From: Vulcanisaeta thermophila
Lineage (GTDB): Archaea; Thermoproteota; Thermoprotei; Thermoproteales; Thermocladiaceae
Length of the DNA stretch: 64,000 nucleotides
Direction: 5' to 3'
NCBI RefSeq assembly: GCF_001748385.1
Contig: NZ_BCLI01000001.1
Span: forward strand, 661,177 to 725,176
In this document: piece by piece, positions 1 through 25,827 of the stretch
Position numbering within the stretch: the stretch's first letter is position 1
How the letters are laid out: every line of letters starts with the position of its first letter
Made by a program: the position numbers and the translations under genes
The notes under the pieces: model-generated
Database searches by the model: none
The model's input: the letters and a program-made list of their open reading frames with translations, nothing else
What the model was told of the DNA's origin: nothing

Positions 1-1
1 T

Positions 2-859
2 GAGTCCCTAGTAAGCCTGGGGCTTTATGGTACATTGGCTGGGATTGGCACCCTCTATGGCATTGTTAAGTACGTAAGTGGCGTAACGCCTGAGGATAGG
101 CGTGAGGGGCTTGACATACTAATGGATACTGCAGTGGGTACATTGATGTACGTGGTTATGTGGGTAGTTATCATGAAGAGCAGCTTATTACCGAACCTCA
201 CCTACAGCATTGGCTCAGCCTTTAACCTAACCAACTACGCACCACTAAACCAAACCCAGTACCTAAGCAGTGGTGACACCTTACTTAGTGGCACAGCAAT
301 TGCGAGTAAGGAGTACTTCAATGTGGTGACCCAGGTTTATGGTAATTTCTGGGGTATCATACTTGCCCTGAACATGGTCCCCATCACATCACCACTGGCT
401 TGGTACCTGCAAAATGCGACGTGGTATTGGCAAACTACGATTCAGTGGACCATCATAAATATAGGATTCATATACGCACTAAGCATCATAGCGGGCTTAG
501 CCTGGGCATTAATCCCTGCGGCCTCGGGACTCCTAATACTGAGGCAGACCAGGATTGTGGGCACCGTAATACTAAGCCTCATCATAGTCTCGGTAATCAC
601 GGCACCATTACTGGCAAGCCTAGCTGGACAGGCATTAACCACATCGGGTATTGCCAGCATCTCTAGCGTGAACCCAGCACAAGCCGCCGAGAACCCAGGC
701 ATATTCGTGAATTCAATACTCAACGGGGCAATGCAAAGCGGACTTAAACTCCAGAGCTTCGACGTCACCGTTGACGTTGTCCTAGCGTTTGCGGTTGCCG
801 TGGCCATGGGCATTAATAGAGCCCTTAGTGAGGTGGAGCACGTAATATTCCCATACTGA
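2..859 (+). CDS. Polytopic membrane protein, 5'-truncated by window edge (candidate CedA/TedA-like channel)
   Basis: The frame is open from the first bases of the window, so the gene begins upstream; the first internal start is TTG at 35. The visible 286 residues contain about six hydrophobic segments, separated by a short charged loop near the start (VTPEDRRE) and a polar, Asn/Thr-rich loop, and end after a last helix with a cytoplasmic-looking tail. No enzymatic motif is seen. The arrangement (amphipathic helix, charged loop, many membrane spans) resembles VirB6/CedA-type channel proteins of crenarchaeal DNA-import machines. The VirB2-like protein, RadA-like recombinase and ParA-like ATPase downstream support that reading. 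The role is inferred; it could be an unrelated transporter. Confidence 0.6.
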   Translation, partial: ESLVSLGLYGTLAGIGTLYGIVKYVSGVTPEDRREGLDILMDTAVGTLMYVVMWVVIMKSSLLPNLTYSIGSAFNLTNYAPLNQTQYLSSGDTLLSGTAIASKEYFNVVTQVYGNFWGIILALNMVPITSPLAWYLQNATWYWQTTIQWTIINIGFIYALSIIAGLAWALIPAASGLLILRQTRIVGTVILSLIIVSVITAPLLASLAGQALTTSGIASISSVNPAQAAENPGIFVNSILNGAMQSGLKLQSFDVTVDVVLAFAVAVAMGINRALSEVEHVIFPY

Positions 860-950
860 AGCACTCAATCCCGTCTAATAATGACAAAGCCCTTACCACA
901 ACCATGCCAAATAACCTCAACTTAAAAGCACTAAATCCCATTATATTGTA

Positions 951-1562
951 ATGGAAAACATAAACCCCAAAATACTACGGCTCGCCCTTGACTCATTGAG
1001 GAGAGATTTCCCAAATAAGTCCCGTTCATGGATCAGGAGAGCCCTTAGGCGTTTGCCCAGGGTGAGGCCCCACCCCAGGCTGCCTAATGTCTGGATTGTG
1101 GAGGGCGACCCGTCCCTGGGCGATAGGTACCCCACGTACGTGGTTAGGCTTAGGCCTGATGGGAGGTATGCATGTAGTTGTTTCGAGACTCCCTGGGGAA
1201 TGAGGAGGAAGAGCGAGATTTGTACTCACATAGCCGCAGTAATGCTTTGGCGTAGGTACCACGCACTCCTCAACGAGGTTGTTTACGCGGACACAATCAC
1301 CATAAAATGCAGTGATTACAATCTACTGATTGATAAGTCAGTTAGGGACAAGGTGAGAATGGAGAAGAGGGTCAGGGTCCTCAACAACGACCTAATCAAC
1401 CCACTTTACGAAATCACCTACGTCATCTGGTCCAAAGAACCAATGAGAGTCAGGGCCAAGGTTGTGTGCAACGAAGACATAGAGGAAATAAAGATGGATT
1501 TAAAGCCCACACCCAGGTACATGATTGAAGTCGTTAGTGAAGCCCGTCATTCTCAATGGTGA
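951..1562 (+). CDS. SWIM zinc-finger protein
   Basis: A 203-residue soluble protein with a clear SWIM zinc-finger signature: Cys75-x-Cys77-x13-Cys91-x-His93, followed by a hydrophobic helix (IAAVMLW). SWIM domains bind DNA or proteins and occur in recombination mediators and transposase-associated proteins. The N-terminal 40 residues are very basic (RR and RRLPR clusters), consistent with nucleic-acid binding. A TATA-like CTTAAAAG lies about 27 bp before the ATG, fitting a leaderless start. Its 3' end overlaps the convergent RadA-like gene by 29 bp. The pairing with a RadA-like protein recalls eukaryotic SWIM proteins that work with Rad51, but a functional link here is inference. Confidence 0.8.
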   Translation: MENINPKILRLALDSLRRDFPNKSRSWIRRALRRLPRVRPHPRLPNVWIVEGDPSLGDRYPTYVVRLRPDGRYACSCFETPWGMRRKSEICTHIAAVMLWRRYHALLNEVVYADTITIKCSDYNLLIDKSVRDKVRMEKRVRVLNNDLINPLYEITYVIWSKEPMRVRAKVVCNEDIEEIKMDLKPTPRYMIEVVSEARHSQW

Positions 1563-2508
1563 ACTTAGCCTCGGCGCCACTGGGCACCCCAGGCACGTCT
1601 AGTGCCTTGATTACGCCCTCGTTTTTTGATTTCGGTTTCTGCATGAGCCACCTCTGATTTACCGTGTGAGCTAGGACGTTGCCTCCAACGGGCATTTTAA
1701 GCTCTATGTACCCCGTGGGCATGGTCATTACTTGATTTGTGTAAATCACCAACACCCCCTCCCTTATGGTGAGCCTCCTGAGCCAGTCTAGGACGTAGTG
1801 GAGCCTTTGCTGCCTCTCCGCAAGCCTCTCACGACCCCTGAACTGGGCCCTGTAGAGGGCTGTGACTGAGTCAACAATGATTACCCTGGCGGAGCCACCA
1901 GTCACCAGTCCCGAGACCCTCACCCTGATGAACTCCTCGAGCTCATCAACAGTGGCAGGGTTGTAGGTGAGTAGGTGCTTGTCAAGGAACTCATCGTAAT
2001 TAACACCGAACCTGGTGCACATGTTCTTAAGCAACTCACTACCTAGGTATGAGTCTAGGGTCTTCTCCGTGTCGATGTACACCACGCCCACGCCGTGCTG
2101 GGCCACAGAGGCCACTGAGACCTGCAAAGCCATTATGGTCTTACCACTCCCGAACTCGCCCGCAAACTCGTAACTAGCACCGAACCTCAGGCCACCAATG
2201 AGGTTGTCGAACTCCTTAATGTCGGTCTTCACGACTGGTACACTGCCCACCCTCTCAAGCCTCTCCCTCGCTGTGAGTGGTTGGGTGTCCATGCCCAGTG
2301 CCCTCCTGGCGACTGCGATTACCTTCTCCGCCACCGCCACGTCCTGGTAACCAAGGATCTCAGCAAGCTCCTCGGGGTTGTACAGGACCAACTGCCTGAG
2401 GCTTGTTAACCCAACCGCCCTGATCCTCTCAACCACGGCCCTAGGCAACCCAGCATCGATTAGGGGCGCGAACTCGCCATCCTCGGTTGTGCTTGATTTC
2501 TTAGGCAT
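1534..2508 (-). CDS. Divergent RadA-like recombinase
   Basis: A RecA/Rad51-family ATPase of 324 residues, the usual RadA length. An N-terminal helix-hairpin-helix-like domain spans residues 15-70. Walker A (GEFGSGKT) is at 117-124, Walker B (VIIVD) at 209-213, followed by the family's FRGRERLAERQQ stretch, a TNQVM segment and a VGGNVLAHT segment. It departs from canonical RadA: the region before the core reads GLRFG instead of a glycine-rich GGGIE, and the expected FxxA polymerisation motif is PLTA (77-80), lacking Phe. It is probably a RadA paralogue. Its place in a putative DNA-import locus suggests recombination of incoming DNA, though it could be the genome's main RadA. Confidence 0.8.
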   Translation of the reverse strand: MPKKSSTTEDGEFAPLIDAGLPRAVVERIRAVGLTSLRQLVLYNPEELAEILGYQDVAVAEKVIAVARRALGMDTQPLTARERLERVGSVPVVKTDIKEFDNLIGGLRFGASYEFAGEFGSGKTIMALQVSVASVAQHGVGVVYIDTEKTLDSYLGSELLKNMCTRFGVNYDEFLDKHLLTYNPATVDELEEFIRVRVSGLVTGGSARVIIVDSVTALYRAQFRGRERLAERQQRLHYVLDWLRRLTIREGVLVIYTNQVMTMPTGYIELKMPVGGNVLAHTVNQRWLMQKPKSKNEGVIKALDVPGVPSGAEAKFTIENDGLH

Positions 2509-2559
2509 TGAAATATAGGGTGGAGGCTTTTTAAGTGGGGTGTATTAAGTCGTTTATGG

Positions 2560-2970
2560 TTATGGTTTAATTCCCGTTACTTGACCTAACACCGTCGCCA
2601 CCTCCTTCAGCATCTCCATTAATAACTGGCCAGCAATACTCGCCGCAGTGCCCACGTCGATAGTACCCGTGTTTGCATAGGTGATGAAAAGCCCTATTAC
2701 GAACATCGCCAACCAAAGACCCAAGGCCCCGCCCAGTACCAACCTCTCTACATGCTCCGTAACACCACTCAACGCTGCTGATCTACCCCACGAGCTGGGG
2801 TGGGCTATGTACTTAACCACGTTGTACACTATCATTATGAGTAGTATTATGAAGCTTACACCGCCTATGAAGAGTATTGCCTGCCAGAGACCGGAGGCTA
2901 TTGGCGTTATGGCCTGCTGCACAGCATTTGCTATCTCACTCCCACCGGTTTGAAGCAAAACCCCAACCAT
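2560..2970 (-). CDS. Small two-helix membrane protein, VirB2/TedC-like candidate pilin
   Basis: About 136 residues with two long hydrophobic helices (roughly residues 28-58 and 84-106) joined by a polar, positively charged loop (SSWGRS...EHVER), then an amphipathic C-terminal helix. This is the layout of VirB2/TraA conjugative pilins and of the small CedA1/TedC pilins of crenarchaeal DNA-import systems. The ATG at 2970 was chosen because the palindromic TTTAAA at 2990-2996 lies 23 bp upstream; a GTG at 2985 would sit too close to it. It is divergently arranged with the ParA-like gene. No recognisable sequence motif proves pilin identity; a generic small membrane protein is the alternative. 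Confidence 0.6.
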   Translation of the reverse strand: MVGVLLQTGGSEIANAVQQAITPIASGLWQAILFIGGVSFIILLIMIVYNVVKYIAHPSSWGRSAALSGVTEHVERLVLGGALGLWLAMFVIGLFITYANTGTIDVGTAASIAGQLLMEMLKEVATVLGQVTGIKP

Positions 2971-2988
2971 CAACCCATTAAGCACCTC

Positions 2989-2998
2989 CTTTAAAAGG
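2989..2998. promoter_or_regulatory. Shared palindromic TATA box between divergent genes
   Basis: The sequence CTTTAAAAGG contains a self-complementary TTTAAA. It lies 23-24 bp from the ATG at 3017 (plus strand) and 23 bp from the ATG at 2970 (minus strand). One symmetrical TATA element could therefore drive both leaderless genes. The spacing is seen directly; promoter function is inferred. Confidence 0.5.
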
Positions 2999-3016
2999 GA
3001 GGGACTGCTGAGTTTG

Positions 3017-3817
3017 ATGCTGGTACCAAGGAAGGTCGTAATCTCGTTCTACAGTGGATCCAGGGGAGGGACTGGGAAGACCACGCTAGCCGTTAACACA
3101 GCAATAGCCCTGCTAATGGCCCTAAGGGTGCCCGTGGCCTATGTGGACTTCGGCGTTGATGGCACCCACATGGGCTCCTTAATGCTCTCGGCAAAGACAG
3201 ACACGGTGGGCGTCACGGACTACCTAATGGGTTTTGTTGACAACGACGAGGTTATACAGAGATCGGGCTTAATCGATGGGCTCTACGTGGTGCCCCCGGG
3301 CACCGTGGACTCCATAAGGATGATCCACAGCATGCCCAGGGGGTTAAGACCAGTAATTGAGAGGCTCGGCTCCCTAGTCACGAGGCTGGCCGAGCATAGG
3401 GCTTATGTGGTAATCATGGACTTACCCTCGGGCTTGGCGCAACCATACACAATAGCCTCCCTAGTGAATTCAGACATCGTTAATGTTGTCCTGGACCACA
3501 GCCCAGGGGCCCTGGAGGCACTAACCAGCATAGGGACTGTACTAAACGTTGTGAGGCCTAGGGTTGTGAATGCGGTGCTTAACAAGTACATACCCAACGC
3601 ACAACCAAGCCTCAGGGAGAAGGTTGAGGGCTTCGTGAGTAACGGCGGCGTGTTCACACTAAGCATGAGCGTAGTCTTACACTACCTAACATCACAATTA
3701 AAGCCCTTCATAAAATACAAACCAGTGGGGGACCTCAGGGAGTTCATGAAGGATTTCACGAGGTTTATGGGTGCCTTAAAAACCCAGGTCAAGCAAGTAC
3801 TTGGTGGTGTACTATGA
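3017..3817 (+). CDS. ParA/MinD-like ATPase with atypical Walker A
   Basis: A 267-residue SIMIBI-class P-loop ATPase. The deviant Walker A region reads SRGGTGKTT at residues 15-23: the signature lysine of ParA/MinD (KGGxGKT) is Arg16, while the P-loop Lys21 and Thr22 are kept. A switch-like VDFGVDG follows at about residue 40, and a hydrophobic strand ending in MDLPSG carries the Walker B aspartate. ParA proteins partition plasmids or position membrane machines, and VirC1-type ParA proteins assist conjugation. The ATG is 24 bp from the shared TATA; a TTG one codon earlier is also possible. It overlaps the next gene by 4 bp (ATGA), indicating an operon. Confidence 0.75.
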   Translation: MLVPRKVVISFYSGSRGGTGKTTLAVNTAIALLMALRVPVAYVDFGVDGTHMGSLMLSAKTDTVGVTDYLMGFVDNDEVIQRSGLIDGLYVVPPGTVDSIRMIHSMPRGLRPVIERLGSLVTRLAEHRAYVVIMDLPSGLAQPYTIASLVNSDIVNVVLDHSPGALEALTSIGTVLNVVRPRVVNAVLNKYIPNAQPSLREKVEGFVSNGGVFTLSMSVVLHYLTSQLKPFIKYKPVGDLREFMKDFTRFMGALKTQVKQVLGGVL

Positions 3818-4173
3818 ACATACTCGGACTCAGGAAGAGTAACACTAAGGAGCAGGATAGTGGCGAGTTGCTCAGGAACCTAATCAACGAGGGCGGACAC
3901 GCGGAGGCGCAGCAACAACCCTCGTTTAGGGAGGAGGTTGAGGTCGAGGAGTTAGTCAACAAACTAGCTAGCATGAACCCCGTGCACAGGGCCATTGTGG
4001 CTAGGGCACTGGGCAACCGCGACATACTCAGGGGGTTAAAGCCAAGGGACTGGGCAGACTACTTTGCATCAAGGGGGATTAGTAAGGGCGTGGTTGAGGC
4101 ATTCCTAGAATGGTTAAGCGAGACCTGCGGTGGTGCCGGTGGAGGAGGAGAGAGCAGCAAGGGCAGTGGCTAA
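3814..4173 (+). CDS. Small charged protein of unknown function, partner of ParA-like gene
   Basis: 119 residues, translationally coupled to the ParA-like ATPase by an ATGA overlap. The N-terminal half is acidic and low in complexity (Gln and Glu runs). Residues 45-105 look like a compact helical domain, followed by a Gly/Ser tail. The position right after a ParA-type gene is where a ParB-like or adaptor partner would lie, but no HTH or RHH fold is obvious. Function is not recognised. Confidence 0.6.
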   Translation: MNILGLRKSNTKEQDSGELLRNLINEGGHAEAQQQPSFREEVEVEELVNKLASMNPVHRAIVARALGNRDILRGLKPRDWADYFASRGISKGVVEAFLEWLSETCGGAGGGGESSKGSG

Positions 4174-4603
4174 GTACGAATTAACAGAGAAGGTACTCAG
4201 GAAACTCAGGGAGAGGAGGATTAAGGTAAGGCTCATAAACATTGACGAGGAGGCCGTGAAGTTCTCGAGGAAGCTAGCGGGGAATTGCATATTTAGGGAA
4301 TTCTGCCAGAGGGCGCTCATGAGGTTATTCACCAGGTACACAACCAAGTCAATAAGGGAGGTCATAAACGAGGCACTGGATAGAGGAATACCACCGGACA
4401 TACCCATCGCATACGCCATAAAAGCACCGGAAAGACTAAGCGAACTAATAAGCACAGGCTCGGTAGACTGGGAACTAGTGACTGAGGCAGTAAATGAGGT
4501 AATGAACACGAGACTCGGGGTGCTGGAAATCAAAAACGCACTGGAGGTCCGGGGAAAGGCAAAACACCCACACATACCCAAAATCCTCAAAACCAACCCC
4601 TAG
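4130..4603 (+). CDS. Unrecognised soluble helical protein
   Basis: 157 residues, basic N-terminus (ELTEKVLRKLRERRIKVRL), predicted mostly helical. It overlaps the previous gene by 44 bp from GTG 4130; later GTGs at 4133 and 4139 would only slightly reduce the overlap. It ends inside the 3' end of the convergent RHH gene (17 bp overlap). The continuous frame, codon use and tight packing argue that it is real and part of the ParA operon. No family recognised. Confidence 0.55.
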   Translation: MVPVEEERAARAVAKYELTEKVLRKLRERRIKVRLINIDEEAVKFSRKLAGNCIFREFCQRALMRLFTRYTTKSIREVINEALDRGIPPDIPIAYAIKAPERLSELISTGSVDWELVTEAVNEVMNTRLGVLEIKNALEVRGKAKHPHIPKILKTNP

Positions 4604-4949
4604 ACCTAATAATGCTGACCCAAGGGTTATCCTCAAAACCCGTTGTTTGCTCCTGGGGTTGCCCCTCCCTCCGTGACTGCTGGGGCTGGGACTGGGCGCA
4701 CTGACTCAACCCATTGAGTACAGCCCTCAACTCGTTGAGTGTGGTTCTCAACTCATTGGTTAGGCCACCCAACTCACTAACCAGCGACCTCAACTCAGTG
4801 ACTAAACTCACTAACTCACCGCACTGCCCCTGCCCAGCACGCCTCAGTAACTCCTCAACCACATCACCAATGGTTACACCCCTACCAGCAGCCATCCTAA
4901 CAAGCTCCCTATACACACCCTCACTAACCCTCACCGTCCTCCCAACCAC
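4587..4949 (-). CDS. Ribbon-helix-helix regulator with coiled coil and FEDNPWVSIIR tail
   Basis: About 120 residues. The N-terminus has the ribbon-helix-helix pattern of CopG/VapB-type DNA-binding proteins (RTVRVSEGVYRELVRMAA, then a DVVEELLRRA helix). A heptad-like Leu/Val repeat follows (ELVSL..ELRSL..ELGGL..ELRTTL..ELRAVL), likely a coiled coil. A Gln-rich linker leads to the tail FEDNPWVSIIR. GTG 4949 was chosen because TATA-like CTTAAAAG (4972-4979) is 26 bp upstream; TTG 4964 is the longest option. The operator array at 4984-5101 lies directly behind this promoter, so autoregulation is likely. It could be an antitoxin without an adjacent toxin or an island regulator. Confidence 0.7.
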   Translation of the reverse strand: MVGRTVRVSEGVYRELVRMAAGRGVTIGDVVEELLRRAGQGQCGELVSLVTELRSLVSELGGLTNELRTTLNELRAVLNGLSQCAQSQPQQSRREGQPQEQTTGFEDNPWVSIIRSRGWF

Positions 4950-4983
4950 GCCTAAAGCTAACAAAGGCTTAAAAGGGCCCTGG

Positions 4984-5127: not shown

Positions 5128-6024
5128 TTAAGGTTTTTTAAGTTCGTTAATTAGTTTCCTTATGTTTTCATTGCGTAGTGTATCGTGTAATTGTGCGAGT
5201 TCACCGTGCCTTATTATGATTACTTGCTCCTTAATTTCATCAAATGTTTCTTTCAATAAGTTATGTACTTTATCCATGTCCTTATTGGTAATGACGTAGA
5301 TGGGCCTTGATCTGTACTTCTTATAGGCATGCATTAACGCAGTAAGATCCTTATCTATTTCACCCCTTACGTGAACCTCAACCACAGCATGGGGCGCAGG
5401 CTTTGGCTCCTTGAAAAATGCTACGTCTACCCTGAAGTTATCAATTTCGTGGTTAATCTCGGCTTTAAAACCAAGCCACACACCAATATCCCTAACCATC
5501 TCAACCAACTTATTATGGCTATATCCAGTATGGCTACGCTCTGGCTTATAAGACACTGCTCCCTGGGACGCCCTTAACCTCTCCTCGATCAATCTCCCAA
5601 GCTCATCTGGAAGTGGTTTCTTACGGATATACAGCATCCTGAGCCCTTTCAGATCTAGGTCTTTTTCTCTAAGGATTTCTTTTTCTTTAAGAATCCTTGA
5701 CAACTCATCCTTAACCTCATCAAACTTCACAACCCCCTCAGCAATGAATCTCACATCCACTACACGTGGATAAAGAACTTTCCCCTCCCTTTCCTCGTCA
5801 GGGAATTGAGGCTTGCTGGACTCCCTCCACTCCCCAACTACCTCGACAACCGCCGTGAATGAGCCACAGAGCTCCTCGCAATTTTCCTGCATGACATAAA
5901 CCACAAGCCTATCGCCCGGCTTTATTTTCTCTGCAAAATTCTTTGATTTCTCAGGTAAACCATAGATGAGGTGGCCCCTCATGTACCTATAATTCTCCTC
6001 AGTCATCATTACTAACCAATACAT
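5128..6024 (-). CDS. EVE-domain protein with nuclease-like C-terminal domain
   Basis: 298 residues. Residues 1-125 match an EVE (PUA-like) domain: the YWLVMMTEENYRYM opening, GDRLVVYV, and a later VDVRF strand. EVE domains read modified bases such as 5-methylcytosine. Residues 165-298 resemble a PD-(D/E)xK fold: helix with Glu175, strand with Asp200 (RVDVAFF), and strand Glu216-Val-His218, where the usual Lys is His, followed by an amphipathic helix and a YVIT strand. The plan suggests a modification-dependent restriction enzyme. It lies beside a large nuclease-methylase, supporting a defence role. Base composition is more AT-rich than flanking housekeeping genes. Catalytic competence is uncertain because of the K-to-H change. 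Confidence 0.7.
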   Translation of the reverse strand: MYWLVMMTEENYRYMRGHLIYGLPEKSKNFAEKIKPGDRLVVYVMQENCEELCGSFTAVVEVVGEWRESSKPQFPDEEREGKVLYPRVVDVRFIAEGVVKFDEVKDELSRILKEKEILREKDLDLKGLRMLYIRKKPLPDELGRLIEERLRASQGAVSYKPERSHTGYSHNKLVEMVRDIGVWLGFKAEINHEIDNFRVDVAFFKEPKPAPHAVVEVHVRGEIDKDLTALMHAYKKYRSRPIYVITNKDMDKVHNLLKETFDEIKEQVIIIRHGELAQLHDTLRNENIRKLINELKKP

Positions 6025-6108
6025 CAGTAATAAATCATTAGTTGATTATTAAAAATTTTCCCCTTATCTTTCTATAAGCATTGCGGGAATATCTTGTTAA
6101 GTTGCTGA

Positions 6109-6240
6109 TTAGTCCCACGAAACCTGTTGAACTCGCACATCCCTCAGATGAAGCTTCCCAATCCACTCCATTAGTATTAGGTATGCTGGTATGGTCAGTA
6201 ATCCAGCTATGGCTAGATTAATGTAATAAAACCCCACCAC
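6109..6240 (-). pseudogene. Single-helix membrane peptide or gene remnant
   Basis: From GTG 6240, 43 residues are encoded: one hydrophobic helix (IAGLLTIPAYLIL) followed by a charged tail (KLHLRDVRVQQ). Too short to assign; it may be the tail of a lost transporter or a small real protein. Confidence 0.25.
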
Positions 6241-6264
6241 AAGCTCTACTGCACCATAACTACA

Positions 6265-6360
6265 TTACTCACAGTCAAGCCCCTCGCTGGCTAGCCTGGT
6301 TAGCTCCTCATAAACGTTCTCCCCGACCCTAATAGTCCTATGCCTCGCACCACCCACCAC
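6265..6360 (-). pseudogene. Truncated VapB-like antitoxin
   Basis: 31 residues from GTG 6360 encode only the beta strand and first helix of a ribbon-helix-helix antitoxin (HRTIRVGENVYEELTRLA), then stop. An AT-rich TATA-like stretch (TAAATTTA, about 6380) precedes it. It matches the N-terminus of the RHH protein at 4587-4949 but lacks the second helix and toxin-binding tail. No VapC toxin is adjacent. Probably a decayed toxin-antitoxin locus. Confidence 0.45.
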
Positions 6361-6629
6361 TACATATCTAGGGCGCACATTAAATTTAGAAAATTTCGCT
6401 TGGAAGATTGAGGGATAATTGGTGCCGTGCTTAAACCGCCATGTTAAGAGGGTTTCATGGAGGTTGCGGCGGTGGCTTAGGTGAGTGCTTGTGGTGTATT
6501 CCATGGAGGGTGCCTTGGGGCGTGCACACATTAGTTGTTGTGGGTGTCTGTGCAGTGAATACATTAATCATAACTACTGGGGTAATGTGGAGGTTAAGTT
6601 TAAGTTTCCCTGGGTATTAATTTCTAGAA

Positions 6630-9600
6630 ATGGCTGTGTCTGGTTCTCAGATTGATGTTGATGGTGTTTTGAATTGCTTCTTACAAGGCATTAAGAGGGC
6701 TGGTAATGAGGAGGAGCTGAGGATTAACGTATCCAAGTGCATAGAGGACATGATCCTCAAACCACTGGGTATAACGCAGTACGGTCGCTACGAGTACACC
6801 CTAGTCTCTGGGGCTAGGGTGGATGCCCTCTACGGGCACGTAATCATAGAGTACAAAGCCCCAGGCAAACTCTCAACAAACACCGACATAACCAGGGCCA
6901 AGGAGCAGGTAATAAACTACATTAAAACGGAGGCTGCCTCGAAGGCTGAGTGGGATAGGTACCTGGGTATTATAATCAGTGATAGGATAGCCTTCGTGAG
7001 GTACTACAAACCACAAGATACTTGGGTCCTAAGGGGCCCGTACAACATCACCAGGGAGAGCATCATAAAGGTTATTGAGGCCCTGAGAGGGCTAAGGAGG
7101 AAGGCGCTCAGTGTGGATAACCTCCTGAGGGACTTCGGCCCCCAGTCGGAACTTGCTGGGAGGGTTATTAGGGCGTTGTATAGGAGGCTCGTTGAGAGTA
7201 GGAGCCCGAGGACTAGGGTGTTGTTTGAGGATTGGATGAGGCTCTTCAGACAGGCAACGGGTTACAGCCCCGATAGGCTGGAGGAACTACCGCAGCTAGC
7301 CCGTGAGTATGGGTTAACGGGTAACGTCAGCTATGACGCCCTCATATTCGCGATACAGACGTACTACGCCTTCATACTGAAGCTCCTCGCCGCGGAGGTT
7401 GTTTACCTATACGGCGGTGGTAGGTTTTACAAGTCCTACATAGCCGAGCTAGATGATGCATACACAAGGGGCGGTGTCGACGCCCTAAGGGATGAGCTTA
7501 GGGAGTTGGAAAGCGGCGGCGTTTTTAGGCACTTTGGCTATGAGAATTTCCTGGAGGGTGATTACTTCTCCTGGTACCTGGAGGAGCTTGATAAGGAACT
7601 TGCTGATGCACTAGCCGAAGTCGTCAGGAGGCTCTCGGACTACGAACCAGCAACGCCTCAGTTGGAGCCCGAGTACGCCAGGGACCTCCTAAAGAGACTG
7701 TACCAGCAGTTAGTACCCGGGGACATTAGGCATAACCTTGGTGAGTACTACACGCCCGACTGGCTCGCTGACTTCCTACTCGATGAGGTGGGGCTCAGCC
7801 TAGAGAACCTCATGAAGATGGGCGAGGAGGACCCACTGAAACCGCTGCAATTGAGGGTTCTGGACCCAGCATGTGGCTCGGGCACCTTCCTTGTGAGGTA
7901 CATAGCGAGGCTTAGGGCTTATGCCAGGGAGCACTTCCTGGAGGATGTACTGGTCGATTACCTACTACAGAACGTGGTTGGTTACGACCTAAACCCACTG
8001 GCTGTACTCACCGCCAGGACAAACTACCTACTCATGATTGCGGACCTGCCGAAGAGGGGGACAATAGAGATACCGATTTACATGGCCGACTCACTGATGG
8101 TTGAGAGGAGATCCACAATACTGGGTGATGTTTACGTGCTGAAGACAACGGCTGGGGAGTTCAGGATACCAGCAAGCATTGTCGAGAAGAACCTACTGCC
8201 AGGTATACTCCACGAGGTGACTGACGCACTGAGGAATAGGTACAAGCCGGAGGATTTCAAAGCAAGACTAAAGTACAGGTTCAGGGAGTTAGAGGAAAAC
8301 GAGCTCAACGTCCTGGTGGATTTCTACAGCACGCTACTAAAGCTGGAGGAGGAGGGTAAGGACGATGTGTGGGTATCCATAATAAGGAACGCCTTCGCAC
8401 CAATACTGAGGGGCAGGTTCGACTATGTTGTGGGTAACCCACCATGGGTTAATTGGGAAAACCTGCCTGAGGACTTCAGGGAGTTGTCCAATGACTTGTG
8501 GCAGCACTATGGATTAGTAGGGAGGGGTGCAGGTTTTAAGAGGGACTTGGCGATGCTCTTCATGGCCAGGTGCTTCGACCTCTACCTAAAACCAGGCGGT
8601 AAGCACGCATTCCTAATGCCGTTCACGGTATTCAAGTCACAGGCTGGTACTGGCTTTAGGAGGTTCCTAGCCACCAAAACCAAGGTGCATGTTGTGCACG
8701 ACATGGTATCTTTAAGGCCGTTCGAAGAGGCTACGAATGAAACCTCGGCAATAGTTGCTGAGAAAGTATGCGAGGTTAATAAGACATGCCCTGAAATGAG
8801 CAAGGTGATTACAGAGAATATGAAGGGGGTTAGGCACGTAATATGGGTTAACAGGACAGGGAAGCCCATACCCACTGATATGCATTTGGAGGACGTCCTC
8901 AAGGTTACGGAGAGGTTTGAGGCCATAATGACGCCCGTAGTGGAGGGAGACCCCTCAAGCTCTTGGATGCAGGTAACAAGGAAAGCGCTGCCTTACATTA
9001 GGAAGGTAACCTCTGGGCCCTCATCATACGAGGCGCATGCGGGAGTATATACGGCTCTAAACCAGGTATACTTCATACAGATTAAGCAGAGGCTCCCGGA
9101 TGGTAAGTTGCTAATCACTAACCCACCGGAGCCTGGGCAGAAGAAGAGGGTTAAGCAGGTCGAGGTGACTGTAGAGCCTGACCTTGTCTACCCACTCATT
9201 AGGGGCAGGGACGTTAAGAAGTGGTACGTGGATTTCAGTAACAGATACATCATAATACCTCACTATGAGAATGGAGAACCAATACCTTTAGAGGAACTCA
9301 AAATCAAGTACCCGCTTACGTACGGTTATCTTTATCAGTTTAAGGAAGAGCTCAAAGATAGGGGCATCAAGCCATTTATCTCGCTAAGGAAAATGATTAG
9401 AAGTGCTGAGTCAAAAACTGAGAAAAACTCCGCACTGGGGAAGCTAGAGAGCAACTTCCACATAGTAGATAACATAGGCCCCTACACCTTCGCCCCCTAC
9501 AGGGTAGTGTGGAAGGAGGTCTCAGCCCGAAAGCAGGTAGGGGGTTTTCATGTGGCGGTTTTAGAGCCGGTTGATGACAGATACTTAGGAAGGAAAGTTC

Positions 9601-10004
9601 CTATACCGGAGCATACGGTAATATTAATCCCGTTTAATGATGCTATGGAAGCATATTACGTGGCTGGTATTTTAAACTCAACCGTAGCTGCTATGTACGG
9701 CACATACATGGTCAGTAGTTCATTAAGTCAAATGCTTATACCGAAGTATAATGCTGATAATCCCCTTCATAATGAGATAGCTAGACTTTCTAGGAAAGCC
9801 CATGAGCTTGCTAAATGCATTTACTCTAAGATCAAGCCCGATTACTGCAGGGAGGTTAGGGACCCAGGGAGTGAGCTTAGGAGGGTTGAGGATGAGCTTG
9901 ATAAAGCCGTGGCCCAGCTCTACGGCATACCCGAGGACGCCCTGGAGGAGTTCAGGAAGTTACTGGGTGTATTGGCTGGTGAGGGTGTTCCTGAAGAGGG
10001 GTGA
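6630..10004 (+). CDS. Single-chain nuclease / N6-adenine DNA methylase (type IIG- or PglX-like)
   Basis: 1124 residues. The N-terminal domain has a PD-(D/E)xK signature (Asp65 ... Glu74-Tyr-Lys76), typical of the nuclease module of fused restriction-modification enzymes. A helical region precedes the LGEYYTP entry to the methylase core; SAM motif I (DPACGSGTF) is near residue 412 and catalytic motif IV (NPPW) near 603. The remaining 500 residues should hold the target-recognition domain. Eco57I-type type IIG enzymes and the BREX methylase PglX share this core. The downstream BrxL remnants make a BREX-like system possible, with this protein supplying host methylation and possibly cleavage. The ATG lies about 30 bp after an AT-rich TATA-like stretch. 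Confidence 0.85.
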   Translation: MAVSGSQIDVDGVLNCFLQGIKRAGNEEELRINVSKCIEDMILKPLGITQYGRYEYTLVSGARVDALYGHVIIEYKAPGKLSTNTDITRAKEQVINYIKTEAASKAEWDRYLGIIISDRIAFVRYYKPQDTWVLRGPYNITRESIIKVIEALRGLRRKALSVDNLLRDFGPQSELAGRVIRALYRRLVESRSPRTRVLFEDWMRLFRQATGYSPDRLEELPQLAREYGLTGNVSYDALIFAIQTYYAFILKLLAAEVVYLYGGGRFYKSYIAELDDAYTRGGVDALRDELRELESGGVFRHFGYENFLEGDYFSWYLEELDKELADALAEVVRRLSDYEPATPQLEPEYARDLLKRLYQQLVPGDIRHNLGEYYTPDWLADFLLDEVGLSLENLMKMGEEDPLKPLQLRVLDPACGSGTFLVRYIARLRAYAREHFLEDVLVDYLLQNVVGYDLNPLAVLTARTNYLLMIADLPKRGTIEIPIYMADSLMVERRSTILGDVYVLKTTAGEFRIPASIVEKNLLPGILHEVTDALRNRYKPEDFKARLKYRFRELEENELNVLVDFYSTLLKLEEEGKDDVWVSIIRNAFAPILRGRFDYVVGNPPWVNWENLPEDFRELSNDLWQHYGLVGRGAGFKRDLAMLFMARCFDLYLKPGGKHAFLMPFTVFKSQAGTGFRRFLATKTKVHVVHDMVSLRPFEEATNETSAIVAEKVCEVNKTCPEMSKVITENMKGVRHVIWVNRTGKPIPTDMHLEDVLKVTERFEAIMTPVVEGDPSSSWMQVTRKALPYIRKVTSGPSSYEAHAGVYTALNQVYFIQIKQRLPDGKLLITNPPEPGQKKRVKQVEVTVEPDLVYPLIRGRDVKKWYVDFSNRYIIIPHYENGEPIPLEELKIKYPLTYGYLYQFKEELKDRGIKPFISLRKMIRSAESKTEKNSALGKLESNFHIVDNIGPYTFAPYRVVWKEVSARKQVGGFHVAVLEPVDDRYLGRKVPIPEHTVILIPFNDAMEAYYVAGILNSTVAAMYGTYMVSSSLSQMLIPKYNADNPLHNEIARLSRKAHELAKCIYSKIKPDYCREVRDPGSELRRVEDELDKAVAQLYGIPEDALEEFRKLLGVLAGEGVPEEG

Positions 10005-10330: not shown

Positions 10331-10596
10331 TGGTTGTGGGTGATCTTTATGCTAAGATTAGGAGGGCTTTTGGGGACTATGATGTGGATAAGAGCCTACT
10401 TCATGAGACGGAGATATCTAGGTTGCCGGGTTTTATTGCTGAGTACCTCATAACGGAGTATGCGATGGAGTATCCCAATGATTGGCAGACGAGGCTTAGG
10501 GAGTTCATTAAACGGCATTATTTTGAGGCTATAGTAATTGATTTTGAGGACAACCCCTGGGTCAGCATCATTAGGCTTAAGGCCGGAAGATCCTGA
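10330..10596 (+). pseudogene. N-terminal fragment of BrxL/Lon-like protein with foreign tail
   Basis: 88 residues from ATG 10330. Residues 5-65 resemble the N-terminal domain of BrxL (Lon-like AAA+ protein of BREX systems): KIRRAFGDYDVDKSLL, then SRLPGFIAEYLITEYA and FIKRHYF. The full family is several times longer (about 600-700 residues). After residue 65 the sequence departs from what the family should show and ends with FEDNPWVSIIR plus eight residues, the same tail as the RHH protein at 4587-4949. The matching C-terminal piece lies at 15928-16251. The gene is therefore interrupted and presumably inactive. Confidence 0.6.
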
Positions 10597-21262: not shown

Positions 21263-22132
21263 TTAATTATCCTGGGCTGCTTGCATGGGTATTATTTGAA
21301 GTGGGTATTGGCTTACCCTGGTTATTTGTATGGGTCCGTAGGTGTATGTGTAGTTTATGTAAAAGTTCATGTACAGCATTGAAGGGGTGAATATGGGCGT
21401 TGAATTGCATCGGTACCGAATCCCCGTGGGGTTTAGGGTCCCGTTTACTGAGCTCATGTTTAGGGTTAGGGTTGTGGGTGTTGTGGTTATGGGTAATGGG
21501 CTTGTTAGGTTGCACTTCACCATGTATATTCCCTGTGATGTTCCCTCCATGAAGCCGAAGCCATTTATCACGGTTTCCCCGAAGGGTATTGCCTGGATTG
21601 TGGTTATTGTTAGTATGGGCCTTGAGGTGTTGGTTATGTATGGTATTGTGAGTACTATTCCACTATGTGCTGTGGTTAGGTAGAGTGTGTAGCTCCTCTT
21701 TACGTTCTCCACGTAGGCCGTGGCGTTCATGGCGTATTGGTACTGACTTATCATGAGCTTTGATAGGTTGCCCACGTTACCCATCACCTGAAGCCCTGGG
21801 GCGTATACTTCCGTGGTTCCGTTGTAGTACTGAATTACTATTGCTAGGAAGCCCAGGGTGCTGGGTATGTTGCCCGTTAGTGTTATGTTGGTTCCGCTCC
21901 TGGGTATTACAATGTTGACCGCCTTTAATGGTGCATTGAATTCATTACCCCCTATTATCACTAGTACGTTCTCCCCAAGCCCCATGTATAGCGTGGCGTT
22001 TGCGCTTAGGTAGCCTGTTATGGTTAGGAAGGGTGATGGTATCGAGAGTATCACGATTAGGGATGCTATGAAGCCCATGAAGATGAGTAATCCACCTAGT
22101 GCGTATGCTGGTATTACCACTGCCCTGGCCAC
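21263..22132 (-). CDS. Secreted or membrane-anchored protein, unknown
   Basis: 289 residues with one N-terminal membrane segment (ALGGLLIFMGFIASLIVILSI) and an extracellular beta-rich domain carrying many N-glycosylation sequons (NAT, NIT, NGT, NLS, NTS, NMS). Probably exposed at the cell surface. It sits between rad50 and the CoA ligase without functional connection. Not recognised. Confidence 0.6.
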   Translation of the reverse strand: MARAVVIPAYALGGLLIFMGFIASLIVILSIPSPFLTITGYLSANATLYMGLGENVLVIIGGNEFNAPLKAVNIVIPRSGTNITLTGNIPSTLGFLAIVIQYYNGTTEVYAPGLQVMGNVGNLSKLMISQYQYAMNATAYVENVKRSYTLYLTTAHSGIVLTIPYITNTSRPILTITTIQAIPFGETVINGFGFMEGTSQGIYMVKCNLTSPLPITTTPTTLTLNMSSVNGTLNPTGIRYRCNSTPIFTPSMLYMNFYINYTYTYGPIQITRVSQYPLQIIPMQAAQDN

Positions 22133-22164
22133 TGCGTTAACTACGGTTAAGCCCGTATTAAACC

Positions 22165-24576
22165 TTACGCATTATAGAAGGCTGACTCACCCCTGTTGTT
22201 TATGAAGCCTATCCTGATTATGTTGTCGGCTATTGTCTCCAGGGAGTCCACGTGTGACGTTATTATGACGGACCTAACACCATTACTCAGGCTCCTAATC
22301 CACATGGCTATCCTACGCCTATGCTCCTCATCGAGGTGCTCAGTGGGTTCGTCGAGGATTAGTATGGGTATGGAGCCCATGATTGCCCTGGCAATGGCGT
22401 ACCTTAGGAACAGGGATACCAGGTTTCTCTCGCCTATGGATAGGGAGTCCACGGGTAGTACCACACCGTCACTCCTCCTAACCATCACCTCATAATCCTC
22501 ATTAATCTCCACGGATGAGTAAGACCCCTTATGCATTATTTCCCTGGCCATCTCCGTGAGCTCCCCATTCACAGCGTCTAGGAAGAGTTTCCTCACCATG
22601 GGTTTTACCGAGTCCAGGGTGTCCTGAATCCTTGTGAGTAGCTCCGCCGCGTTGTTGTACTTATTCACTTCACTCCTTAGTTTGTTGAGTTCGTTGTTTT
22701 TACTTTCTATCTCCCCATTCAACTCAGCAATCCTACTGCCCAGGGTTTGGGCCCTTCCCCTTAATTCATTGATCATACTAATCAACCTCTCCCTCTCATT
22801 AACCTCCGCACTTAGTTTTTCCCTAATCGCCGTGAGGTTCTTCAGTTTTCCCTCTAGCTCCCCCATCCTCCTGCCTAGTTCACTTTTCCTATTCGTTAAC
22901 TCCCTTATCCTTGCCTCTAGGTTCCTCATGTTCTCCTCAATTTCCCTTAACCCCCTTAATCTTCCCCTTATTTCGGCAATCTCTATCCTCTTATTCTCAA
23001 GCTCCCTAATGCTATTATTCACCTTGCTTATTTCCTCCTCTATTGATTGTAATTCCCTCCTTAATTCGGCGTCCTTTAATGATGATAATTCACTTAATTC
23101 GCTTGTTATTGATGCCCTCCTATTCATTAGGTCCTGTAATTCCCGTTTTATTACGTCCTCCCTGCTTAATTCACTCTCTATCTCCCTTAATTCCTCCTCA
23201 TACCTCCTGATTTGGTTTAGTGCGGTGGTTAGGTTTGTTAGTTGGTTGTTTAGTTCGTTCAATCTCTTAATTAGTGCATTAAGCCTTGCCGTCCTCTGCG
23301 CCCTTAATTCACTCGCCATTTCCCTGCTTAGGGGTCTCCCGCATACTGGGCATTTATCTCCGGTTTCATTTAGTAGTTTTATTTCTAGGTCTATGTGCTC
23401 AATCTCCGCCTTTAATCGTGCAGTTTCCTCCCTGGCGGTTTCAATTTCGGTTTCGACACGGTCCCTTATCATTACTTTATCTTTCAATTCCCTCCACCTA
23501 TTCCTAAGCTCACCTAGCCTCTCTAGTTCATTGCTTAATTCCGTTATTCTTGTGTTTATTTCTTTCAATTCCTTATTCAGTGACTCGGCCCTTGACTTCC
23601 TCTCCTCCATTGAGGATAGTAAATCCCTTACTTCATCCCTCCTCCTTTCCATTTCCCTAAGCCTCTCCTTCAATTTCTCCTCCTCCTTAATAATCCCCTC
23701 CTCATCCTCCAACCTACTCATTAGTTTACTGAGCTCCTCGTAATTCCTCCTCGTGGATTCCAGGGCCTCGGTGAGTTCATTCAATTGCTTATTTATTAAC
23801 TCAAGCTCCTGCTTAACCGCCAGGTACTCCCGCTCAGCACTGCTTAATTCCTCCTCCTGGCTTTTTAGGGTTTCTATTTCCCTATTTACCCTGCTCAATT
23901 CATCCTCGAGCTTGCTCAACTCATTATTTATCCTGTTCAGTTCATTGAGTAGTTTATCCCTCTCGTTGATTCTCAGTTGTAATTCATTACTTATTACTGA
24001 GATTTTACCCCTCAATCCCTCGATGGTAATCTCCACCCTCTTTAAACCCTCCCTCACCACATCCTGCCTAGCCCTCTCTATTGAGTCCAGCCTCAGCAAT
24101 GTGTCGAACCTGAACTCACCCTTCTTACCACTCCTTAGTATGTCCCTTATCTCCCCCTGCCTAACGTATAATAACTCGCTGAAGGTTTCCATGTTTATCC
24201 CGGTTATGTTGGTTACGAACTGCGTGACCTCCCTATCCCTGGCGGCGACCCTCCTACCCTCCTCGTTGATTACGTATGTTTGGAATTCGATGGATTTCTC
24301 GGTTGTGAATGCCCTTTGAATTAGGTATTTCCTACCATCAAGCCCCACAAGCTCTATCCTAATCAACGCGGTACTAGCCCCCTTCCTGACCAAATCGCTT
24401 AGTTTGTACCTGCCCCTAACCCAATCACTGCCGTAGAGCCCCATTGCAATGGCCTCCAGGAGGCTTGTTTTCCCCGAGCCGTTTGGCCCGTGGATGAAGT
24501 TTATGCCCTCCGTGATCACCGCCTTACCCCTAACAATGGACCTGAAGTTCTCAACCTCAACCCTACTTATTAGCAA
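22165..24576 (-). CDS. rad50: DNA double-strand break repair ATPase Rad50
   Basis: 803 residues. N-terminal ABC half with Walker A GPNGSGKT (30-37), a long antiparallel coiled coil interrupted at about residue 410 by the zinc-hook motif CPVC, then the C-terminal ABC half with signature SIGERNL and Walker B ILILDEPTEHLD. It works with Mre11 to hold and process DNA ends. TTG start, 6 bp after the mre11 stop; third gene of the herA-mre11-rad50 operon. Confidence 0.95.
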   Translation of the reverse strand: MLISRVEVENFRSIVRGKAVITEGINFIHGPNGSGKTSLLEAIAMGLYGSDWVRGRYKLSDLVRKGASTALIRIELVGLDGRKYLIQRAFTTEKSIEFQTYVINEEGRRVAARDREVTQFVTNITGINMETFSELLYVRQGEIRDILRSGKKGEFRFDTLLRLDSIERARQDVVREGLKRVEITIEGLRGKISVISNELQLRINERDKLLNELNRINNELSKLEDELSRVNREIETLKSQEEELSSAEREYLAVKQELELINKQLNELTEALESTRRNYEELSKLMSRLEDEEGIIKEEEKLKERLREMERRRDEVRDLLSSMEERKSRAESLNKELKEINTRITELSNELERLGELRNRWRELKDKVMIRDRVETEIETAREETARLKAEIEHIDLEIKLLNETGDKCPVCGRPLSREMASELRAQRTARLNALIKRLNELNNQLTNLTTALNQIRRYEEELREIESELSREDVIKRELQDLMNRRASITSELSELSSLKDAELRRELQSIEEEISKVNNSIRELENKRIEIAEIRGRLRGLREIEENMRNLEARIRELTNRKSELGRRMGELEGKLKNLTAIREKLSAEVNERERLISMINELRGRAQTLGSRIAELNGEIESKNNELNKLRSEVNKYNNAAELLTRIQDTLDSVKPMVRKLFLDAVNGELTEMAREIMHKGSYSSVEINEDYEVMVRRSDGVVLPVDSLSIGERNLVSLFLRYAIARAIMGSIPILILDEPTEHLDEEHRRRIAMWIRSLSNGVRSVIITSHVDSLETIADNIIRIGFINNRGESAFYNA

Positions 24577-24582
24577 GGCTCA

Positions 24583-25827
24583 TCACCCAAGCCAATCCCT
24601 AATGGACCTACTCCCCCTCAATGGAACCCCCACAATATCCTCAAGGGTTTTGAATGCCCCATCCTCATTCCCCACCCTGACCTTCTCGATGATGTCCATT
24701 AACGAACTCACTAAATTCTCGTCATTGAGTTTGGACCTTAGGGCGGTCCTTATTATGTCGTTAATCCCACTGAACGTGCGTACCTCCTCAACAACCCTCT
24801 GGGGCCTCTCTAGGTTAAGCCTCACGTCGACCCAGGACTTGGTGAAGAACCTGCGTAATTCCTGAACCTGGAAGTCCCTGCTTGAGTACCCCCTGGCCAC
24901 CTTACCCTCTATCTCGAGGATTATGTACGCATCCCTTAGGTCCATGTTATTGGCTATGTATGATACGTCACCCCTAACCCTGTCCGGCTTCGCCTCGTCA
25001 TAAACCATCCTAATCCTCACCAACCTCCTCTGGGGCTTCAGGGCTATGCTTCTAACCCTGACGCCGTTACTGCCCACGTCTAGGATTAGGAAGCCCTTGG
25101 GATCCATACCCTTAATCCTGCTTAACCTACTGTCCCTGTACTCGAAGGTTTCGAACTCCCTGGCATCCCATATTTCCAGGGAGCCTGGGTACGTGGCGTT
25201 TAGCCTTGGGTGTTTTAGCCCATGCTCGTGTATGTGCCCCACGGCTATGTAATCAAGGTTTAACTGCAATAGTGGTTTCTCGTTTACCATGAAGACGTCA
25301 ACATTGGGCATGGGGTATACGTAGGGTGCCCCCTCAATGTACTGGTGAATAATGGCTATGTTAAGCCTGCCCTGGGCCATGTGGTTCCTAATGGTTGTGA
25401 AGAGCTTGTTTTGCATGTCCGTGTACACGGTGCCCACACCAATCAACCTAACGTTGTCAATGTCCACATGCCCATCATCCATGTAATTAATCAGGCCCAT
25501 CTGGTGCAGGACAACCAGCGGGTTTTCCGTGGGGTTTATGATTGAGGCGTCATGATTGCCCCTGACGGCGTAGATCCTCATTCCAGCCTCCCTGAGCCTC
25601 ATGAAGCCCCTGATGGCTGTTATGTAGATGCTTGGTGGTGGTCTTTGGGTATCGAATAAGTCGCCACTTATTATCACATGTTCCAAACCCTCCTCCTCAT
25701 GGAGCCTAAGCAATTCATCAACTGCCCTGAGGAATGCCTTGTTATAATCCTCAAGCCTTTCCTCGAGCCCGTACTGCCTATGCCCCAGGTGTATGTCGGA
25801 TAAGTGAGCCAATAGCATGAGCCTCAC
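24583..25827 (-). CDS. mre11: DNA double-strand break repair nuclease Mre11
   Basis: 414 residues. Metallophosphoesterase motifs in order: DIHLGH near residue 11, SGDLFD near 57, RGNHDA near 93, then HQY and GHIHEHG. These build the two-manganese nuclease site. The C-terminal region should hold the capping and Rad50-binding helices. The GTG start overlaps the herA stop (GTGA), giving translational coupling; an ATG three codons in is also possible. Confidence 0.93.
   Translation of the reverse strand: MRLMLLAHLSDIHLGHRQYGLEERLEDYNKAFLRAVDELLRLHEEEGLEHVIISGDLFDTQRPPPSIYITAIRGFMRLREAGMRIYAVRGNHDASIINPTENPLVVLHQMGLINYMDDGHVDIDNVRLIGVGTVYTDMQNKLFTTIRNHMAQGRLNIAIIHQYIEGAPYVYPMPNVDVFMVNEKPLLQLNLDYIAVGHIHEHGLKHPRLNATYPGSLEIWDAREFETFEYRDSRLSRIKGMDPKGFLILDVGSNGVRVRSIALKPQRRLVRIRMVYDEAKPDRVRGDVSYIANNMDLRDAYIILEIEGKVARGYSSRDFQVQELRRFFTKSWVDVRLNLERPQRVVEEVRTFSGINDIIRTALRSKLNDENLVSSLMDIIEKVRVGNEDGAFKTLEDIVGVPLRGSRSIRDWLG

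Follow-up and report, generated by a model that had tools for sequence, protein, structure and literature searches.

A Ted DNA-exchange locus of Vulcanisaeta thermophila with neighbouring genes for a RadA paralog and a SWIM zinc-finger protein

The Ted locus of Vulcanisaeta encodes a RadA paralog and a SWIM protein

The DNA analysed here, a stretch of 64,000 nucleotides of Vulcanisaeta thermophila (contig NZ_BCLI01000001.1, positions 661,177 to 725,176; hereafter the window), begins within a gene cluster that is the Ted (Thermoproteales exchange of DNA) locus of Vulcanisaeta, and within this locus a gene for a RadA paralog lies convergent with one for a SWIM zinc-finger protein. The best explanation of the whole, which we regard as reasonably probable, is that the products of these two genes make up a Shu-like pair aiding the canonical RadA on the transferred single strand. 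More tentatively, a dedicated archaeal complex of the Shu type is proposed for the Ted systems of Vulcanisaeta and of the Pyrobaculum family, a built-in RadA loader that would couple conjugation-like DNA import to homologous recombination. The window starts at position 661177 of contig C1 of the 2.02-Mb genome (G000); about 20 kb to its left were also examined, and negative coordinates denote positions left of the window.

A preliminary description of the window had reported seven genes packed into 4.6 kb. All seven open reading frames were found again at or near the same places, and their proteins have homologues of 27–62% identity in other Vulcanisaeta genomes, so they are real genes. The SWIM and RadA-paralog genes overlap by 29 bp at their convergent ends, tedC and parA diverge across a 28-bp spacer, and parA overlaps the following gene by 4 bp. 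The locus extends beyond the boundary drawn in that description, reaching leftwards to about window −13.3 kb.

Components of the Ted machine

The tedA gene (window 1–859, plus strand), which lacks 4 bases at the window edge and whose ATG lies at window −4, encodes a VirB6/CedA-like polytopic membrane protein of 287 aa with at least four hydrophobic segments. Profile comparison by hhalign matched the TedA family over its full length to the Pyrobaculum TedA family, including that of P. calidifontis (probability 94.8%, E 5e-8, 254 columns), and the window protein is 37–40% identical to the product of the tedC-adjoining gene of other Vulcanisaeta. No credible match to the PDB was obtained with the TedA family profile (HMMER). 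Weak Pfam T4SS_pilin matches were seen at the N-termini of the window TedA (E 0.0045) and the P. calidifontis TedA (E 0.035); an origin of the TedA N-terminus from a pilin is unsupported, as the match between the TedA and pilin families was not significant.

A two-helix small membrane protein had been suspected to be VirB2/TedC-like, and family profiles bore this out, structure prediction adding nothing. Its gene (window 2560–2985, minus strand; true start possibly at 2970–2973) encodes a pilin of the VirB2/CedA1 type with two hydrophobic helices, and the family alignment shows a GG in helix 1 and a T/S-W-G-R loop. The best and sole plausible PDB match of the family profile was 8DFT, the TedC of P. 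calidifontis (E 0.005, weak), and comparison with the Pyrobaculum TedC family gave a probability of 74.8% (hhalign, E 2.6e-5). Because the sequence match is weak, the assignment to TedC is carried by synteny: tedC adjoins tedA in other Vulcanisaeta. A PDB search with the single pilin sequence returned only compositionally biased matches to designed armadillo repeats, so the family profile was required.

The VirB4-like ATPase, predicted to lie upstream, is present. TedB (692 aa, window −13302 to −11224, minus strand) is a VirB4/CedB/CedD-like protein with two N-terminal hydrophobic segments, its gene ending 11.2 kb left of the window on the strand opposite to tedA. It matched DUF87 (1e-15), CedD (8e-14) and CedB (1.5e-6), and belongs to the same family as the TedB of the P. 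calidifontis locus (E 2e-51, 23% identical). Also on the minus strand are the genes for a giant membrane protein of 1788 aa (window −11227 to −5861) and a HerA-like ATPase of 423 aa (window −5346 to −4075), a linked gene type of published Ted loci; the former gene lies between those of TedB and the HerA-like ATPase, with a small gene between it and the HerA-like one. The giant protein is homologous to the tedC-adjoining one in Caldivirga and Thermocladium-like genomes (99.8%, E 2e-29). It was considered as a second TedA and rejected, since its profile match to TedA was not significant (E 0.04) and it has only an LLIxRxTRxxG stretch in common with the Vulcanisaeta TedA family. On the plus strand, the genes r12 and r13, a zinc-ribbon gene and a 490 aa gene run into tedA.

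The P. calidifontis type locus and other relatives

When the 8DFT TedC sequence was searched across the order, one genome (G063) encoded a protein 99% identical to it, indicating that this genome is P. calidifontis or a very near relative. Its Ted locus (L140) comprises TedB, a 332 aa gene, an r12 homologue, a 499 aa gene, the RadA paralog, the HerA-like ATPase, SWIM, TedC, TedA and the giant membrane protein. Each of TedB, r12, the RadA paralog, the HerA-like ATPase, SWIM, TedC, TedA and the giant protein is matched in the Vulcanisaeta locus, either by a homologue or by a gene in the corresponding position. In P. calidifontis, Pcal_0765 is TedC and Pcal_0766 is TedA, with TedB as a further component, and published Ted loci are linked to VirC1/ParA-like, HerA-like and "rad50 recombinase" genes, according to the Ted paper (PMC9905601).

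The two loci are thus alike in TedA, the TedC-like pilin, VirB4-like TedB, HerA-like ATPase, r12 and giant membrane protein, and also in the RadA paralog (41% identical) and SWIM gene (40% identical), which lie inside the type locus. However, the Vulcanisaeta virB4 lies on the opposite strand, 11–13 kb from tedA and apart from parA, TedB is only 23% identical, and the pilin lacks an obvious signal-peptidase site. The window locus has a parA, whereas no parA homologue was detected in the P. calidifontis stretch examined. The recombinase, SWIM and ParA genes had been taken as a module extending a Ted-like locus; they are not an addition specific to this locus, as ParA already belongs to published Ted loci and the RadA–SWIM pair is found in the type locus as well.

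Within Vulcanisaeta, tedA, tedC, parA and tedB recur together with the RadA paralog and SWIM, in keeping with the expected co-occurrence of these genes. Two genomes (G014 and G017) hold one cluster of about 30 kb, in the order r10, HerA-like ATPase, r12, giant membrane protein, virB4, two small genes, parA, T2SSE-type ATPase, membrane genes, tedC, tedA, a 500 aa gene, RadA paralog, ribbon-helix-helix (RHH) gene and SWIM. The parts of this cluster are reshuffled in the window genome, where tedC is oriented away from tedA, and parA with its two small genes no longer leads into virB4. The order parA-small-small-virB4 is also found in Caldivirga and Thermocladium-like genomes.

The Ced system of Sulfolobales and Desulfurococcales (CedA, CedA1, CedB, CedD) likewise combines a VirB6-like channel, a VirB2-like pilin and a VirB4/HerA-type ATPase. 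However, Vulcanisaeta TedB scored only 27–51 bits on CedB and CedD, against cut-offs of 600–700, and a separate CedB/CedD-like ATPase pair is encoded elsewhere in the window genome. This pair of HerA/VirB4-like proteins (613 and 583 aa, C1:213320-217132, L081), whose neighbours are conserved in several Vulcanisaeta, is arranged like CedB/CedD, although in this order VirB4 is said to be present instead.

Some further features of relatives were recorded. Ted clusters of Vulcanisaeta and Caldivirga encode a secretion ATPase of type II/IV (PF00437, E 5e-22) together with a six-TM partner (L033:5442-7016, minus strand; L035; L037), which was not seen in the Ted cluster of the window genome. Two Pyrobaculum genomes (G064 and G071; L130, L131, L138, L144, L147) hold three to five Ted copies each; the TedB copies within one genome diverge by about 40%, yet TedB is about 95% identical to its counterpart in the other species, and most copies have similar HerA-like and RadA genes, as though these had been exchanged or converted. 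V. distributa JCM 11216 carries four or more virB4 genes, located on separate short contigs (L049, L050, L053, L057), some with broken frames.

The RadA paralog has lost the polymerisation phenylalanine

The RadA paralog (324 aa, window 1534–2508, minus strand) matched Pfam Rad51 with an E value of 1e-35 and retains the N-terminal domain and the Walker A motif GEFGSGKT. Its score of 172 bits falls far below the RadA equivalog cut-off of 259. The window genome encodes a canonical RadA, another paralog that is class-wide, and the Ted-type one; in a phylogenetic tree, the Ted-type paralogs form a single clade apart from canonical RadA with support 100/100. In an alignment, the polymerisation motif FxxA reads FITA in the canonical RadA of the same genome and PLTA, TTA, VSA or MSA in the Ted paralogs. 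All Ted copies have lost its phenylalanine and have kept Walker A and the L2-region residues, and the NQV...GGN.LAH stretch and much of the RadA core are also kept. Since the FxxA phenylalanine is missing, the RadA paralog of the Ted locus is, as judged from its sequence, probably an accessory factor rather than a recombinase. The locus had been described as having its own recombinase; the assignment to the Rad51/RadA family stands, but for a paralog without the polymerisation motif the claim was overstated.

The SWIM protein and its linkage to the RadA paralog

The SWIM protein (203 aa, window 951–1562, plus strand) carries a Shu2/SWS1-type CxC...CxHxxA motif, CSCFETPWGMRRKSEICTHIAA, with the spacing CxC-x13-CxHxxA. 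The cysteines and histidine of the motif are invariant among 15 homologues, and the final alanine is replaced by serine in P. calidifontis-type copies. Eleven of the 15 family members matched Pfam SWIM (PF04434; best E 5e-5), the window protein itself falling below the Pfam threshold, and the zinc-finger call of the preliminary description thus holds. The family profile found no credible match in the PDB (HMMER), and the AlphaFold model was poor (pLDDT 61), its Foldseek matches being meaningless.

In 19 near-complete Thermoproteia genomes, a SWIM gene lies within 5 kb of 15 of the 34 RadA-paralog genes, against 0.56 expected, and this holds for 13/14 paralogs at Ted loci versus 2/20 elsewhere, counts that are not independent because the copies in one genome are related. 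The linkage persists through the reshuffling of gene order between Vulcanisaeta and Pyrobaculum. The pair occurs at Ted in Vulcanisaeta, in Pyrobaculum and in one more genus of the Pyrobaculum family, and Ted loci split into two types, those with the pair and those, in Caldivirga, without it. The RadA paralog and SWIM are often 0–56 bp apart in metagenome-assembled genomes (MAGs) from other families, with no VirB4 detected.

Across the class, SWIM copies and fragments number up to 20 in some genomes (for example G016, G019, G056 and G057), scattered and in many cases broken by stops, and the Ted cluster of G014 has an inverted SWIM fragment at its far end (C1:118116).

Comparison with the Shu complex and a possible mechanism

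Shu2/SWS1 proteins are defined by the motif CXC...Xn...CXHXXA, and Shu complexes consist of such a SWIM protein and a RAD51 paralog (PMC6316741). Similar to human SWS1-SWSAP1 and to yeast Shu2 with Csm2-Psy3, the Ted locus encodes a CxC...CxHxxA SWIM protein and, in the neighbouring gene, a RadA paralog of a clade separate from the main recombinase. However, the putative Ted pair is archaeal, keeps the RadA-like N-terminal domain and is encoded in a DNA-transfer locus, and neither the profile search of the PDB nor the poor model related the SWIM protein to Shu2/SWS1 in sequence or fold. A literature search, with most subscription journals outside its reach, found no published archaeal SWIM–RadA pairing.

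A mechanism can be proposed from the gene content. TedC-like subunits would form a lipid-lined pilus, TedA and the giant membrane protein would form a membrane channel, and TedB with the second, HerA-like ATPase may push DNA through the TedA channel and the TedC pilus. The ParA/VirC1-like ATPase might position the machine or its DNA, as VirC1 does. At the channel, the RadA paralog and SWIM protein would act as a Shu-like complex on the incoming (or outgoing) single strand and assist assembly of the main RadA on it, leading to recombination into the chromosome. In bacterial natural transformation, helpers of the DprA/ComM type pass incoming single-stranded DNA to the main recombinase. The likeness to these helpers lies only in the proposed role, the protein families being unrelated. 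DNA import by Ted was deduced from pilus structure and homology (PMC9905601), and no report of demonstrated DNA import by any Ted system was found in the literature. If the proposal is true, the Ted pair would be an archaeal, conjugation-linked counterpart of the eukaryotic Shu complex.

The published "rad50" label probably denotes the RadA paralog

RadA/Rad51 are the proteins that coat single-stranded DNA ahead of strand invasion. In the text of the Ted paper, this role is given to Rad50, rad50 is listed as an accessory and not a defining part of Ted, and RadA, Rad51 and SWIM are not mentioned (PMC9905601). A search for the Rad50 zinc hook in P. calidifontis, G014, G017 and Pyrobaculum G064 found none closer than 200 kb to their Ted loci; in P. 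calidifontis, Rad50 is encoded at 342 and 1524 kb, versus 712–726 kb for Ted. Further, in the centre of the P. calidifontis Ted locus Pfam detected the Rad51 family and not Rad50. Given the distance of Rad50 from Ted loci, the Rad51-family gene inside them and the role described, the "rad50 recombinase" of published Ted loci is probably the RadA-paralog gene. The account of how imported DNA proceeds to recombination rested, in the same paper, on Rad50 and HerA-NurA; if the linked recombinase is instead the RadA paralog with SWIM, the question could be addressed experimentally with two small soluble proteins.

In the window genome, an operon with its own canonical HerA (639 aa, window 25824–27743) and Rad50 (803 aa, window 22165–24576) occupies window 21263–27743, including 414 and 289 aa genes between and after them. 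It lies about 20 kb from the Ted locus, an arrangement not seen in the other genomes checked.

Alternative explanations

Several observations weigh against a Shu-like pair serving a working Ted machine. A complete Caldivirga genome (G001) has Ted genes and neither SWIM nor the RadA paralog, so Ted in general does not require the pair; a second RadA–SWIM pair of P. calidifontis lies far from any VirB4; and numerous SWIM genes lie outside Ted loci. On the side of the machine, the TedC match of the window pilin is weak in absolute terms, its AlphaFold model was poor (pLDDT 49) with meaningless Foldseek matches, and no obvious signal-peptidase (AxA) site was recognised by eye, unlike in P. calidifontis TedC. 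In the Walker A motif of ParA (SRGGTGKTT, window 3038–3085) the signature lysine is replaced by arginine, as in one copy of genome G019, lysine being kept in the remaining homologues, and the activity of this ParA is therefore uncertain. The pair could be a general DNA-repair pair that merely lies near Ted genes without cooperating with them, as its occurrence in MAGs outside Ted loci, the second P. calidifontis copy and the SWIM genes and fragments dispersed through some genomes would suggest. We judge this quite improbable, as SWIM accompanies 13/14 Ted-linked paralogs versus 2/20 others (copies not fully independent), the Ted-type paralogs are a clade of their own, and the linkage was maintained while the order of the genes around it changed. 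It is very improbable that the RadA-like protein is itself a strand-exchange recombinase acting on imported DNA, the literal sense of the preliminary description: the protein keeps its N-terminal domain and Walker A, together with a large part of the RadA core including NQV...GGN.LAH, but the FxxA phenylalanine is absent from all Ted copies, the score is far below the RadA equivalog cut-off, and a canonical RadA and another paralog are encoded elsewhere in the genome.

The cluster might also be an integrated conjugative element or its remnant, with the RadA paralog and SWIM serving the replication, integration or segregation of the element. Such an origin would suit its patchy presence (a complete Vulcanisaeta genome, G018, lacks this Ted type), the multiple copies in V. 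distributa JCM 11216 (at least four virB4) and in Pyrobaculum G064 and G071 (three to five Ted copies), a Caldivirga genome (G002) with a contig of the Vulcanisaeta-type parA-RadA-SWIM-pilin beside its own Ted genes, and the unlike right flanks of the Ted cluster in G014 and G017. However, their left chromosomal flank is common to both at 87–92%, consistent with vertical inheritance. No tyrosine integrase (PF00589, Phage_integrase) was found in the window genome or G017, a search that did not cover serine recombinases and other integrases, and a tRNA-Gln lies immediately left of the locus but no repeated attachment site was found. A viral or plasmid origin was rejected, as IMG/VR gave no match beyond a short ATPase motif and the bacterial plasmids of PLSDB only short ATPase-domain matches. 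An integrated element is thus considered unlikely, and the Shu-like pair of a Ted locus remains the preferred explanation.

The parA block and adjoining genes

ParA (267 aa, window 3014–3817, plus strand; alternative ATG at 3017) is a MinD/ParA-family, VirC1-like ATPase (Pfam AAA_31, E 5e-7; NCBIfam minD_arch, E 2e-9), in agreement with its initial description. In other Vulcanisaeta, the ParA encoded in the parA-small-small-virB4 block is 35–39% identical to it, and the Caldivirga and Thermocladium-like counterparts are 25–28% identical. The second gene of the block (119 aa, window 3814–4173, plus strand) is 27–37% identical to same-position genes of G014, G017 and G019, and the third (157 aa, window 4130–4603, plus strand) is 27–38% identical to genes immediately 5′ of virB4 in other Vulcanisaeta. 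Elsewhere virB4 directly follows this third gene, while in the window genome it is displaced. The 28-bp region between tedC and parA (window 2986–3013) contains a palindromic CCTTTAAAAGG-like stretch which, read from the sequence, could be a TATA element for both strands.

Downstream, a gene on the minus strand (window 4587–4964) encodes an RHH protein (weak Pfam RHH_1, E 0.018), a probable regulator by its family, which is 28–32% identical to the products of SWIM-adjoining genes in G014, G017 and G019. A 34-bp inverted repeat (91%; window 4605–4638 and 10542–10575) encodes the WVSIIR-type C-terminal tail of this protein and of another open reading frame, and the same type of tail is found in the RHH proteins of relatives. 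Adjoining the locus, window 5128–10004 encodes an EVE-domain protein and a 1124 aa methyltransferase-like (PglX/type IIG-like) protein, neighbours that look like defence genes.

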